A stretch of 64,000 nucleotides of DNA from an uncultured Croceitalea sp. (GTDB taxonomy: Bacteria > Bacteroidota > Bacteroidia > Flavobacteriales > Flavobacteriaceae), in assembly GCA_947495075.1 (NCBI GenBank), contig CANLXH010000002.1, positions 744,001-808,000 of the forward strand, in the 5' to 3' direction. Below are positions 23,604 through 39,626 of this stretch, in pieces; within the stretch, counting starts at the first letter, position 1, and each line of letters opens with the position of its first letter. The notes under the pieces were generated by a model. The model saw only the letters and a program-made list of their open reading frames with translations. It did not search any database and was not told the origin of the DNA. The position numbers and the translations under genes are program-made.

Positions 23604-23813
23604 ATGCAAGGGGATGTCGAAAACCTTAAAAATAGAGTAGACATACAACTAAAACAATTTGTAATGAAAAACGTTCAAAACACGGATTATTTTAAAGTTG
23701 AAGAACTAGAACAGCGTTTGGAGATGGGTAAGTGGTCTGCCGATGTTAAAGGAGGTGGAACTAATGAATTTAAAGTTAAGGAAGCCTCAGTTAAATACAC
23801 TGCCAAATTTTAG
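23604..23813 (+). CDS. Unrecognised 69-residue protein, divergent from the synthase operon
   Basis: ATG 23604 gives MQGDVENLKNRVDIQLKQF; an in-frame TTG ten codons upstream is less likely. The N-terminus is helical, followed by YFKVEELEQRLEMGKW, a glycine patch (VKGGGTNEF) and a strand-like end (KVKEASVKYTAKF). There is no cysteine, signal peptide or membrane segment. A GC-rich hairpin follows 9 bp after the stop. It could be a precursor peptide or small partner for the adjacent locus, or unrelated to it. Not recognised; called on frame, start and its own terminator-like hairpin. Confidence 0.6.
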   Translation: MQGDVENLKNRVDIQLKQFVMKNVQNTDYFKVEELEQRLEMGKWSADVKGGGTNEFKVKEASVKYTAKF

Positions 23814-36237: not shown

Positions 36238-36846
36238 ATGCCTTTTGAACTACCTAGCTTACCATATGCTCATGATGCTTTAGAACCACATATAGATGCT
36301 CGCACCATGGAAATTCATCATGGAAAACACCATAACGGATATACAACTAAATTAAATGCTGCTATTGCAGGAACCGAACTCGAAGGAAAATCGATAGATA
36401 CAATCCTTACTAACTTGGATATGTCTAATGGAGCAGTAAGAAATAATGGTGGAGGTTTTTATAACCATTCACTTTTTTGGAGTATTATGTCCCCAGATGG
36501 AGGAGGAAGTCCCTCAGGTGAATTGGGTAATGCTATTGATGAAGCTTTTGACTCTTATGATGGCTTTAAAGAAAAATTTAGTGCATCTGCAGGAACGCGC
36601 TTTGGCTCTGGATGGGCTTGGCTTTGCGTACACAAAGGAGGTAAAGTTGAAATTTGTTCGACTCCTAACCAAGACAATCCGCTTATGCCAGGTGTAGGCT
36701 GTGGAGGATATCCAATTTTAGGACTAGATGTATGGGAACATGCATACTACTTAAATTATCAAAATAGAAGACCAGATTATGTGTCTGCTTTTTTTAATGT
36801 AATTAATTGGGATAAGGTAAATGAGCTGTATGCCGCTAGTAAATAA
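36238..36846 (+). CDS. sodA: Superoxide dismutase, Fe/Mn family (Mn-like signature)
   Basis: Converts superoxide to oxygen and H2O2 in the cytoplasm. The 202 residues match the family. Metal ligands are in [15 protein letters not shown] (His), FYNHSLFW (His), and [19 protein letters not shown] (Asp and His). The glycine before the NH pair (GGGFYNH) and the glutamine in NQDNPLMPG favour manganese or cambialistic use. It is followed by a strong terminator and then the sRNA array. Confidence 0.94.
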
Positions 36847-36873
36847 GATATAAGTTTCCTGTATTAAAATTTA

Positions 36874-36899
36874 GCGCATCTCTTCGATGCGCTTTTTTT
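36874..36899 (+). terminator. Terminator of sod
   Basis: Seven-bp stem GCGCATC/GATGCGC (36874-36880 and 36886-36892), loop TCTTC, then seven T residues. Ends the sod transcript before the small-RNA array. Confidence 0.9.
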
Positions 36900-36927
36900 A
36901 TGAAAAAATTCTCAAATGTATGAAATA

Positions 36928-36998
36928 GAAAAGGGCGGAGAAATCTCCACCCTTTTCGTCCCAAATCTTACCATAAACTTAACCTACTTATGCTATGG
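36928..36998 (-). ncRNA. Tandem small RNA gene, copy 1
   Basis: About 71 nt on the minus strand. It begins with the conserved CCATAGCATAAGTAGG segment (36998 leftwards) and ends in a terminator hairpin at 36928-36957. The 37-nt body differs at one position from copies 2-4. The one imperfect pair in the stem is G-U if read as minus-strand RNA but C-A on the plus strand, supporting the minus orientation. Its -7 element is TAATTTAG (one mismatch) with a perfectly spaced TTTG. No protein-coding sense is evident. Confidence 0.75.
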
Positions 36999-37003
36999 CA
37001 ATA

Positions 37004-37034
37004 CTAAATTACTGGTATTGTGAGAAATAACAAA
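37004..37034 (-). promoter_or_regulatory. Promoter of small RNA copy 1
   Basis: Minus strand TTTG (37034-37031), 19-bp spacer, TAATTTAG (37011-37004). The -33 is a full match; the -7 has one mismatch. Confidence 0.55.
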
Positions 37035-37122
37035 GGATATTTAACAATTTTTTGACTTTGAAAATAGAAGTGTAAACTTTTTTATTTGGAAATAAAGAGA
37101 TAAAACATTGATGTTCAAACAT

Positions 37123-37192
37123 AAAGAAGGCGGGGATATCCCCGCCTTCTTTCCCCAAATCTTACCATGAACTTAACCTACTTATGCTATGG
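37123..37192 (-). ncRNA. Tandem small RNA gene, copy 2
   Basis: A 70-nt unit on the minus strand, starting at the conserved CCATAGC (37192) and ending in a perfect 30-nt palindromic hairpin (37123-37152) whose 3' arm ends in TTCTTT. The hairpin centre reads GGGGATATCCCC, against GGAGATATCTCC in copy 3, a compensatory base-pair change showing selection on structure. It is preceded by a consensus promoter at 37198-37228. Possible relation to known Bacteroidota RNA families (for example the Rfam Flavo-1 motif) cannot be decided here. Confidence 0.82.
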
Positions 37193-37197
37193 TTCTT

Positions 37198-37228
37198 CAA
37201 ATGTATTGTAGTAATAAGGGTATACAAA
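37198..37228 (-). promoter_or_regulatory. Promoter of small RNA copy 2
   Basis: Minus strand TTTG (37228-37225), 19-bp spacer, TACATTTG (37205-37198), a full consensus match. The start is expected about 5-7 nt downstream, at the conserved CCATAGC. Confidence 0.75.
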
Positions 37229-37338
37229 AGGTTTTAGATGAGCCCCCTTTTATTAGGTTGAAATGCTTAATCAATTTAATTATACTATAAAGTCTAAAGA
37301 AGAGGGTTACAGATTTTGAAGAAGAATATGAATTAAAT

Positions 37339-37408
37339 AAAGAAGGCGGAGATATCTCCGCCTTCTTTCCCCAAATCTTACCATGAACTTAACCTACTTA
37401 TGCTATGG
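37339..37408 (-). ncRNA. Tandem small RNA gene, copy 3
   Basis: A 70-nt minus-strand unit identical in its ~37-nt body to copy 2, with hairpin 37339-37368 differing by the compensatory pair noted for copy 2. The flanking spacer on its promoter side is also nearly identical to copy 2, so the two arose by duplication of a ~216-bp block. Confidence 0.82.
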
Positions 37409-37413
37409 TTCTT

Positions 37414-37444
37414 CAAATGTATTGTAGTAATAGGGGCGTACAAA
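37414..37444 (-). promoter_or_regulatory. Promoter of small RNA copy 3
   Basis: Minus strand TTTG (37444-37441), 19-bp spacer, TACATTTG (37421-37414), a full consensus match, identical to copy 2. Confidence 0.75.
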
Positions 37445-37554
37445 AGGTTTTAGATGAGATTCCTTTTATTAAGTTGAAATACTAGTTCTAATTTAATGGC
37501 TTATAAAAGTTGAAGAAAAGGAGTACAAAATGTAAAGTATAAATAAAATCTAAT

Positions 37555-37625
37555 AAAAAAGGCGGAGAAGTCTCCACCTTTTTTGCCCCAAATCTTACCA
37601 TGAACTTAACCTACTTATGCTATGG
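37555..37625 (-). ncRNA. Tandem small RNA gene, copy 4
   Basis: Minus-strand unit with the same conserved body, and a hairpin at 37555-37584 that has an A/T-rich base and one G-U pair in the minus-strand reading (C-A on plus). The promoter is weaker: TAAATTAG at 37639-37632 and only a distant TTTG at 23-bp spacing. It may be the least expressed copy, or may be reached by read-through from purF, for which this hairpin could also serve as terminator. Confidence 0.7.
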
Positions 37626-37727
37626 TAAGTACTAATTTACCTTTTGCATCCTCCAAAAGAATCAAAATGACGTTGAATTGTTGTTTTCATCGATGAATTA
37701 CACAAACTATAGGATAAAACGCTACTA

Positions 37728-39626
37728 CTAATAAGCTCGTTCATTTTTACCTTCAAAGAAGTTAATAAAAGCACGGTTAACAACCCTGTTTCCTCCAGGA
37801 GTGGGGTAATCACCAGTAAAATACCAATCTCCAAGATTTTTTGGACAAGCTTTATGAAGGTTTTCTATGGTTTGATAAATAATTTGAACTTCAGCATTAA
37901 TAGTAGATGAGCTTAGTAATTCCCCTATCTTTTGCGATATCTCTTGAGCGGTAAAGGGCTTGTAAAATTCTTTGACGTAATTAACAACATCTTTGTCTTT
38001 AGAATCTACTTGTGTTAAACACTTTTTATAGATGTCTTCGATTTGGTTTGTTGTTCCTTTTTCCTGGTGAAGTACTAGAGCTGCTTTAAAGGCAATAAAG
38101 TCTTCAAGTTTGGCCATATCTATACCATAACAATCTGGATAACGGATTTGAGGTGCAGATGAAACAACGACTATTTTCTTTGGAGATAAACGGTCTAACA
38201 TTCTAAGAATGCTCTTTTTAAGAGTAGTTCCCCTAACAATACTATCATCAATAATGACCAAATTATCTTCTTTCTTTACAGAACCATAAGAAATATCATA
38301 AACATGCTCTACAAGGTCATCTCTGCTACTATCTTGAGTTATAAATGTACGCAACTTAGCATCTTTAATAGCAACTTTTTCTATTCGGGGTCTAACTTCA
38401 AGAATTTTATGTAATTGGTCCTTTGTGATAGCAGCTCCTATAGTTAGAATTTGTTCTTCTTTTTTTCTATTTAAATAGTTTTGAGCTTCTTTTACCATTC
38501 CAAAGAAAGAAGTTTCTGCTGTATTAGGAATGTATGAAAAGACAGTTTTCTGTATATCACTATCAATAGCTTTTAAAATTTGGGGAAAAACCAATTTCCC
38601 CAACTCTTTTCGTTCTTGGTAAATTTCTTTATCACTACCTCTAGAAAAATAAATACGTTCAAAAGAACAGGCTTTCCGTTCAGTAGGAGCTAAGATTTCT
38701 TCAAAAGAAACAGCACCACTCTTTTTAACGATAATTGCATGACCAGGGTCAAGCTCTTTTACATCTTCATATTTTACGTTAAAAACTGTCTGTATCGCAG
38801 GTCTTTCTGATGCAACTACAACAACTTCATCGTCCTTATAATAGTAACTTGGTCTTATTCCTGCTGGGTCTCGTAACATAAAGGCATCTCCATGGCCAAC
38901 CAAACCGCCCATGGCATAACCACCATCCCAGTTTTTAGCGGCTTTCCGTAAAACTTTTGCTAAGTTTAATCGATCCGCAATTAATGGCGTGGCCTCTCTT
39001 TTATTATAACCTTCTTTTTTTATTTGCTTGTATATCTTGGCAACAGCATCATCTAGAAAATGACCTATTTTTTCCATGACCGTAACGGTATCTGCCATTT
39101 CTTTTGGGTGCTGACCCAACTCTACCAAGTTGCCAAAAAGTTCATCAACATTGGTCATATTAAAATTACCTGCAACAATCAAATTACGGTGCATCCAGTT
39201 ATTTTGTCTTAAAAAAGGATGTACACTTTCAATACTATTTTTTCCAAAAGTCCCATAACGAACATGACCTAATAAAAGTTCACCTATGTATGGAATTTCT
39301 TTTTTCTGTCTTGAAACATCTTTGAATAACCCTTCATTTTCGGTAAGGGATTTATTTATTCTATCATTAATCTGCTTAAAAATATCTTGGATGGGCTGTT
39401 GTTCGGCAGACCTAACCCTACTCATATAGCGTTCCCCAGGATTCATATCAAGCTTAATACTAGCAAAACCAGCACCGTCTTGGCCACGATTGTGCTGCTT
39501 CTCCATCATCAGGTACATTTTGTTTACACCGTAAAAGGCTGTACCGTATTTTTCTTTATAGTATTCGAGAGGTTTTAACAATCGAATTAATGAAATCCCA
39601 CATTCGTGCTTAATAGCATCACTCAT
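37728..39626 (-). CDS. purF: Amidophosphoribosyltransferase, long form
   Basis: First committed step of purine synthesis: PRPP plus glutamine to phosphoribosylamine. An N-terminal glutaminase domain has the nucleophile cysteine in IKHECGISL, preceded by eight residues that would be removed. Its ring of motifs HNRGQDGAGFAS, GHVRYGTFG and NWDGGYAMGG is intact. The PRPP loop of the transferase domain is NLVIIDDSIVRGTT. At 632 residues it is about 120 longer than E. coli PurF, with inserts around residues 80-110 and at the C-terminus. It lies after the terminator of the PfkB gene. Confidence 0.92.
   Translation of the reverse strand: MSDAIKHECGISLIRLLKPLEYYKEKYGTAFYGVNKMYLMMEKQHNRGQDGAGFASIKLDMNPGERYMSRVRSAEQQPIQDIFKQINDRINKSLTENEGLFKDVSRQKKEIPYIGELLLGHVRYGTFGKNSIESVHPFLRQNNWMHRNLIVAGNFNMTNVDELFGNLVELGQHPKEMADTVTVMEKIGHFLDDAVAKIYKQIKKEGYNKREATPLIADRLNLAKVLRKAAKNWDGGYAMGGLVGHGDAFMLRDPAGIRPSYYYKDDEVVVVASERPAIQTVFNVKYEDVKELDPGHAIIVKKSGAVSFEEILAPTERKACSFERIYFSRGSDKEIYQERKELGKLVFPQILKAIDSDIQKTVFSYIPNTAETSFFGMVKEAQNYLNRKKEEQILTIGAAITKDQLHKILEVRPRIEKVAIKDAKLRTFITQDSSRDDLVEHVYDISYGSVKKEDNLVIIDDSIVRGTTLKKSILRMLDRLSPKKIVVVSSAPQIRYPDCYGIDMAKLEDFIAFKAALVLHQEKGTTNQIEDIYKKCLTQVDSKDKDVVNYVKEFYKPFTAQEISQKIGELLSSSTINAEVQIIYQTIENLHKACPKNLGDWYFTGDYPTPGGNRVVNRAFINFFEGKNERAY

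Follow-up and report, generated by a model that had tools for sequence, protein, structure and literature searches.

A tandem array of probable base-pairing sRNA genes between sod and purF and its relatives across the Flavobacteriaceae

What do the four near-identical repeats between a superoxide dismutase gene and a purF-like gene of an uncultured Croceitalea sp. encode? The preliminary description of the window, the 64,000-nucleotide stretch of DNA analysed here, took them for non-coding sRNA genes with their own promoters and terminators. Recurrence in other genomes, compensatory base changes, promoter elements and synteny all support this proposal, making it close to certain that the units are sRNA genes. 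As to their role, the best reading is a new multicopy family of base-pairing sRNAs that would work like Qrr, LhrC or FopS, whereby we infer transcription, pairing and regulation from sequence. In its full form, to which we assign a probability of about two in three, the proposal is that the array consists of four copies of a trans-acting sRNA of approximately 72 nt belonging to a Flavobacteriaceae-wide family with a shared operator, a response-regulator target, and sponges. To our knowledge, few sRNA families have been characterised in the Flavobacteriaceae. The present one occurs in most sampled genera and mostly at the same place in the chromosome; together with its predicted target and natural antagonists, it would offer a starting point for studying post-transcriptional control in these bacteria.

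Architecture of the array

The minus strand between sod and purF carries four near-identical sRNA units of 73 nt each (36929-37001, 37123-37195, 37339-37411, and 37556-37628) and no protein gene, as originally proposed. The start-to-start spacings are 194, 216, and 217 bp; three copies had been described as spaced exactly 216 bp apart, which is correct for one of the two distances, the other being 217 bp. A search of the window's own genome with a 121-base query yielded six matches, one for each of the four units and two in reverse orientation to their hairpins, and the array was the sole locus found with this query. Each unit comprises a nearly invariant body of about 41 nt, ACCATAGCATAAGTAGGTTAAGTTCATGGTAAGATTTGGGG or a near variant, followed by a hairpin ending in Ts, with copy D showing the body variants GCCATAG..., TTTATGG, and GGGA. 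The same layout recurs in every copy: a promoter-like box, an ACCAU/AUGGU hairpin exposing AGUAGGUU, the single-stranded linker GGUAAGAUUUGGGG, and the terminator hairpin, resulting in a predicted sRNA length of about 72 nt. The features are compiled in Table 1.

Table 1. Predicted features of the array and its flanking genes (positions in the window)
Feature	Position	Strand	Remarks
sRNA copy A (first after purF)	37555..37626	-	predicted 5' end ACCATAG at 37626; terminator hairpin 37555-37584
sRNA copy B	37338..37409	-	predicted 5' end 37409; terminator hairpin 37339-37368
sRNA copy C	37122..37193	-	predicted 5' end 37193; hairpin 37123-37152
sRNA copy D (last)	36927..36999	-	linker end GGGA, not GGGG; predicted 5' end 36999; hairpin 36928-36957
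Loop box AGTAGGTT of copy C	37175..37182	-	invariant in alignment A1; a few diverged units elsewhere differ
Linker box GGTAAGATTTGGGG of copy C	37153..37166	-	proposed seed for mRNA pairing
-7-like box TAAATTAG of copy A	37632..37639	-	without TTTG at 19 bp
Promoter of copy B	37414..37444	-	TTTG, 19 bp, TACATTTG
Promoter of copy C	37198..37228	-	TTTG, 19 bp, TACATTTG; box TAnnTTTG at -12 to -5
Promoter of copy D	37004..37034	-	TTTG, 19 bp, TAATTTAG
Direct-repeat operator of copy B	37453..37479	-	TTTCAAC ... CTCATC, 20-bp period
Direct-repeat operator of copy C	37237..37263	-	TTTCAAC ... CTCATC, 20-bp period
purF-like gene	37728..39626	-	name from sequence; Pfam: glutamine amidotransferase domains only
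Fe/Mn superoxide dismutase gene (sod)	36238..36846	+	convergent with units

On folding, every unit outperformed all 200 shuffled sequences (z = -3.90, -5.61, -5.28, and -5.27). A terminator scan of 36300-38300 on both strands gave five sites as compared to 1.0 ± 1.0 in shuffles, and these include three of the four units (37368, 36957, and 37584). The hairpin at 37123-37152 is absent from the list of the scan, yet it is a perfect inverted repeat.

The TTTG box located 19 bp from a -7 element, reported initially for three units, is present in copies B, C, and D, with TAnnTTTG or TAATTTAG as the downstream element. The flavobacterial sigma-A box is TAnnTTTG at -12 to -5 according to the accessible text of PMC9723704, and the position of this box served to predict the 5' ends of the sRNAs (37409, 37193, 36999, and ~37626). 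A generic sigma-70 scan revealed no promoter excess (5 sites, 8.2 expected), its consensus not being the Bacteroidota one.

Upstream of most copies we found a direct repeat, TTYANC/TTYATC, with a period of 20 bp and a distance of about 8 bp to the TTTG region. It is reminiscent of LytTR sites, the period of which is typically longer than 20 bp. When scored with a matrix trained on the very units it was applied to, 258 of the 278 non-redundant upstream regions exceeded the 99.9th percentile of the background and 20 were below it. In the last copy of the window's clade (D-type units, n = 54) a strongly conserved block, TTTgTTATTTcnCaCAATACCAGTAaTTTAG, ending with CACAATACCAGTAATTTAG, takes the place of the direct repeat, and such a unit is present at 26 of 31 array loci, which were chosen by high score. 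Most copies may answer to a single transcription factor that binds the TTYANC/TTYATC repeat, and in the window's clade, which includes Maribacter and Zobellia, the last copy may respond to another input. Several separately promoted copies would then provide both dosage and signal integration.

A short peptide encoded by each copy would be suggested by the ATG that is present in each body and by reading frame 1, which reads MVRFG in all four window copies. In these copies, however, there is a stop codon within the body in each reading frame. Moreover, many units of other genera are one base shorter in the body (AGATTT instead of AAGATTT) and so continue in another frame, and the frames diverge through the hairpin. 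As no peptide frame is kept, a conserved peptide, considered from the outset as the coding alternative, is very improbable.

Conservation and covariation in the family

The search for homologues in the Flavobacteriaceae suggested in the preliminary description was carried out with a covariance model derived from alignment A1, which contains 71 of 79 distinct units. The model matched 246 of 299 sampled Flavobacteriaceae genomes (E <= 0.001), which represent 199 of 236 genera, with one to seven matches per genome. In 237 genomes the match was strong, in the other nine it was weak (best E 1.5e-6 to 9.8e-4). Of 295 genomes sampled across the class, 49 matched at E 0.01. Six of these scored above 60 bits, all from Flavobacteriaceae; three further Flavobacteriaceae genomes listed for this sample had no such match. 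The other 43 reached 26-39 bits, and the body was absent in the five of these loci that were examined. A pattern scan of named genomes gave at least 118 stretches, those of Maribacter, Zobellia, Flagellimonas, Flavobacterium, Winogradskyella, Algibacter, Aquimarina, and Aequorivita among them, and an exact match to the body pattern was not found in viral contigs. Among these at least 118 loci, one that contains the sRNA body (L200) is titled Lentimicrobium sp. MAG and is, by title, outside the Flavobacteriaceae.

The genomic position of the units is conserved as well. Of the at least 118 loci, the 118 listed have purF and/or sod next to the units in 111 cases (purF and sod 78, purF only 20, sod only 13, neither 7). 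Among the loci listed purF is always located upstream of the units on the same strand (98/98), sod is always convergent with them (91/91), and where both genes are present the units lie between them (78/78). In one genome (G014; L375 and L376) purF and sod are ~18 kb apart and one sRNA copy is kept at each, which looks as if a rearrangement divided an array. Another genome (G012, contig C13; L374) has two additional sRNA copies that are dispersed, with 8.6 kb between them, and located away from purF and sod.

Covariation in homologous arrays had been set beforehand as a test of the sRNA assignment. We assessed it in alignment A2, comprising the window and 61 named loci of the at least 118, with 131 distinct rows. 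With the rows aligned to the covariance model, which favours the model structure, 97.6% of the cells were paired and 210 cells were changed on both sides. Double-sided changes occurred in 13 of 22 pairs, none of 500 shuffles reached any of five covariation measures, and slid controls were paired to 40-55%. By helix, compensation was observed in 9 of 11 pairs of the terminator and 3 of 8 pairs of the outer 5' helix. An inner apical helix was discarded as unsupported, one of its pairs being broken in 35 of 131 rows. Within the window, the covariation noted earlier between the second and the third copy corresponds to one base pair changed on both sides, from G-C to A-U. The body is more conserved than the terminator and most promoters; the loop AGUAGGUU does not vary at all in alignment A1, and the linker hardly does.

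The comparison with Rfam, including Flavo-1, that had been recommended likewise was carried out. The scan of the whole window detected no family at gathering score in 36850-37740, and none of the 59 matches obtained for this region at E up to 5 reached that score. Flavo-1 was absent both at gathering score in the whole window and among the 59 matches. FopS (BTncRNA_FopS) reached 18.8 bits as compared to a gathering score of 56 (E 3.7, one copy only), and STnc40 at best 37.9 bits as compared to 45, on the plus strand, with 34.1 bits on the minus strand; both were rejected. Near-misses such as STnc40 owe their scores to the terminator hairpin, which, together with the 216-bp tandem duplication (37121-37336 / 37337-37552, 81% identity), would be compatible with functionless repetitive or terminator-derived DNA copied in tandem. 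But the body, the promoter spacing, the compensatory changes, and the locus are kept across genera, so that this explanation is hardly credible. Elsewhere in the window, at 23607-23643 on the plus strand, the DUF805b cis-regulatory RNA of Rfam scored 36.7 bits (gathering score 35.6).

A response-regulator mRNA as candidate target

In the preliminary description the function was given as unknown, with dosage or sponge effects as general options. This view can now be sharpened, as the linker resembles a seed for pairing with a response-regulator mRNA and sponge-like complements were found. The linker GGUAAGAUUUGGGG shows complementarity to the site where translation of the mRNA of a NarL/LuxR-type response regulator (PF00072 and PF00196) begins. 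In the window's genome the gene of this regulator adjoins genes for a PorP/SprF (type IX secretion) plus SPOR protein and for a PD40 protein; in all four other genomes looked at the neighbours are similar by sequence. In the window itself, no gene start (55 ORFs) shares a match of over 8 nt with the sRNA complement.

We searched 30 related genomes for the linker complement CCCCAAATCT and examined sites among the matches listed, 58 stretches in four same-genus genomes and, later, another 20 and a few more. In four of the 58 stretches the site is located directly before an ATG, three times at the response regulator, in three genomes, and once at an ABC-2 permease-like gene, and most of the others are inside or antisense to ORFs. 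For one genome (G004) the reading covered 20 of 25 sites, and the response-regulator site of this fourth genome is among the five left out. The ABC-2-type permease-like gene belongs to the window's own genome (L242, G000:C1:1122797), and CCCCAAATCT precedes its ATG by 18 nt.

The response regulator is present in six of eight genomes of the genus, the other two being 54% and 88% complete. All six same-genus orthologues, which were found by motif search, have the 10-nt linker complement, motif AACCCCAAATCT, just before the ATG; the proteins are 60-100% identical to the query and the flanks of the motif in the leader have diverged. Another 24 orthologues come from other genera and were not chosen by motif. 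Their leaders differ from those of the genus, but in some of them the complement is kept as CUUACC|AUG or CUACC|AUG over the start codon, in some as a (C)CCCAAATCT-like stretch ~60 nt upstream of the start. We then determined the longest exact match to CCCCAAATCTTACCATGAAC in the region from -80 to +3 of the resulting 30 orthologues, two duplicate loci having been dropped from 32. Of the 30 orthologues, 15 have a match of at least 8 nt, as do 9 of the 24 outside the genus, as compared to 2.7% of 556 control starts, which were pooled over all loci and not genome-matched. The mean was reached by none of 2000 shuffled queries for the 30 orthologues and by one of 2000 for the 24. At a lower threshold, 19 of the 30 leaders match over at least 7 nt. 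Predicted pairing of the linker with the response-regulator mRNA is thus well supported for part of one clade, in which the sRNA would block translation of the regulator, its best-supported target; more generally, the linker would pair with translation starts.

It is also conceivable, if rather unlikely, that the units are real mRNA-pairing sRNAs but do not act directly on the response regulator, AACCCCAAATCT being a leader or operator element and the main targets lying elsewhere. With a partly artificial query, no more than 26 of 199 family genomes were found to have the response regulator, which rules it out as the target throughout the family, whereas the sRNA itself is family-wide. In addition, conservation within the genus extends to the AA preceding the motif, which pairing does not explain, and 11 of 30 leaders have no match longer than 6 nt. 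What speaks for direct pairing is that the complement is enriched in other genera though its position moves between the start codon and ~60 nt upstream. The D-promoter motif (at most one mismatch) occurs in 20 of the 26 genomes with the response regulator and in 13 of the 173 others, with part of the matches placed at arrays (reversed control: 3 genomes), an association that common ancestry within one clade can explain. Another genome offers a possible target beyond the response-regulator clade, the start of a secreted M14 zinc-carboxypeptidase-like gene (L355, G015:C77:2584), where CCCCAAATCTG is located directly before the ATG.

Small RNAs of this design are known from other bacteria. Qrr sRNAs of Vibrio are encoded in several near-identical copies with their own promoters, which are sigma-54 promoters, and act on a regulator mRNA. 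The units share with them the near-identical copies, the separate promoters, and a regulator mRNA as predicted target, sequences having been compared by the Rfam scans; the promoters of copies B, C, and D, in contrast, are of the TTTG-19-TAnnTTTG type. LhrC of Listeria has targets different from those of the present sRNA and comes from another phylum. It is a multicopy sRNA under a two-component system according to the accessible text of PMC4132741. Qrr is named in the main text of PMC11697453, which describes FopS as multicopy Bacteroides sRNAs of ~65-70 nt with canonical primary-sigma promoters that pair near start codons, target mainly SusC-type transporters, and are bound by RbpB. According to the same text nine FopS genes are intergenic, four antisense, and one lies in a 3'-UTR; the word 'tandem' is absent from this main text. 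Like FopS, the family studied here is a multicopy Bacteroidota sRNA with (predicted) pairing close to start codons; unlike FopS, it forms a tandem array, and the Rfam model of FopS stays below gathering score. The Rfp sRNAs of Flavobacterium psychrophilum, e.g. Rfp18 and Rfp11, are also flavobacterial, and some are conserved in other species, as stated in the accessible text of PMC9723704. The present family occurs in Flavobacterium species too and may coincide with some Rfp RNA. Rfp18 is described as pairing via a third stem-loop (PMC9723704, accessible text), whereas the present RNA has one body hairpin and a terminator. In the full-text literature searched, including the accessible part of PMC5069720 and excluding supplements, preprints, and most subscription papers, no description of this sRNA was found. 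An own promoter and terminator, a conserved structure, the lack of a conserved ORF, and conserved complementarity to an mRNA start (one target gene in one clade, 19 of 30 leaders) place the RNA in a kind that is already known, whereas the family itself was not found in Rfam or the literature searched.

Candidate sponges and integrase-linked elements

Intergenic stretches complementary to the sRNA occur in two genomes from different genera (G012 and G015) and in the window's genome; if transcribed, they would titrate the sRNA. The stretch in G015 and one of two in G012 (G012a) are flanked alike, by genes that Pfam assigns in both genomes to a CoA-transferase on one side and an oligopeptide-type ABC ATPase on the other, and carry TTTGCCCCAAATCTAYCATGA and, further on, ACCTACTT. 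The duplex predicted with the host sRNA has -52.7 kcal/mol in G015 (z -11.6) and -44.7 kcal/mol for G012a (z -8.3), with none of 300 shuffles as good in either case. Upstream of both there is an operator in sense orientation that scores above every background window (up to 60,000 drawn), and the G015 candidate ends in a hairpin with a T tract. These two are strong candidates for sponges, and, as they carry the same operator, sRNA and sponge might be induced together. Two further stretches are suggestive. G012b has TTTAACCTACT and then a hairpin with CCCCAAAT in its loop, which mirrors the sRNA, with 4 of 300 shuffles as good and the operator oriented opposite to the candidate sponge. The stretch in the window's genome (L370, 4056), located between genes for an HflX-type GTPase and a DUF3078 protein, comprises CCCCAAATCT, TACCTACTTA, and a terminator; here 3 of 300 shuffles were as good and no operator was above threshold. 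In the few hosts seen the complement tracks the variant of the host sRNA, being CCCCAAATCTACC where the sRNA has GGTAGATTTGGGG.

The nature of these matches also bears on the idea that the RNA binds a protein, with hairpin and linker forming a recognition element and the copies titrating the protein in a CsrB/RsmY- or 6S-like manner. Such a role could account for the 5' hairpin loop being invariant in alignment A1 beyond what pairing needs, and the presence of several copies fits it. The matches in leaders and intergenic regions, however, are complements of the RNA and not copies, and there is one hairpin per unit instead of repeated sites. We regard protein titration as quite improbable and retain the base-pairing sRNA as the preferred reading.

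Complements of the sRNA were also found in what may be mobile elements. In four genomes (G001, G003, G004, and G148) CCCCAAATCTTAC(C) is located at or just 3' of the ends of phage-integrase-type genes and is followed by a long hairpin; one of these genes was assigned by Pfam (L249, Phage_integrase, E 6.3e-16), the others by sequence resemblance. There are seven such stretches (L249, L250, L253, L273, L288, L294, and L305), with sites at about 800 or 1500. In five of them (L249, L253, L273, L288, and L305) ACCTACTT follows 94-97 nt further on, and the elements in these five thus hold complements of both sRNA boxes; L250 has CCCTACTT and L294 has none. The pattern CCCCAAATCTTACCNAA was detected in 5 of 199 family genomes (reversed control 0), and only one of the five is an integrase-linked element. 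These elements may act as a sponge or an other-strand mimic, or may be an attachment site. Taken further, the array and dedicated antisense sponges sharing a signal-responsive operator could constitute an RNA-versus-RNA switch that in one clade sets translation of the regulator, itself linked to type IX secretion and surface proteins, and into which recombinase-linked mobile elements intrude with complements of both boxes. We put this forward tentatively, with the odds somewhat against it. A similar hairpin is present in G014 (L350), in a version that matches the sRNA variant of this host.
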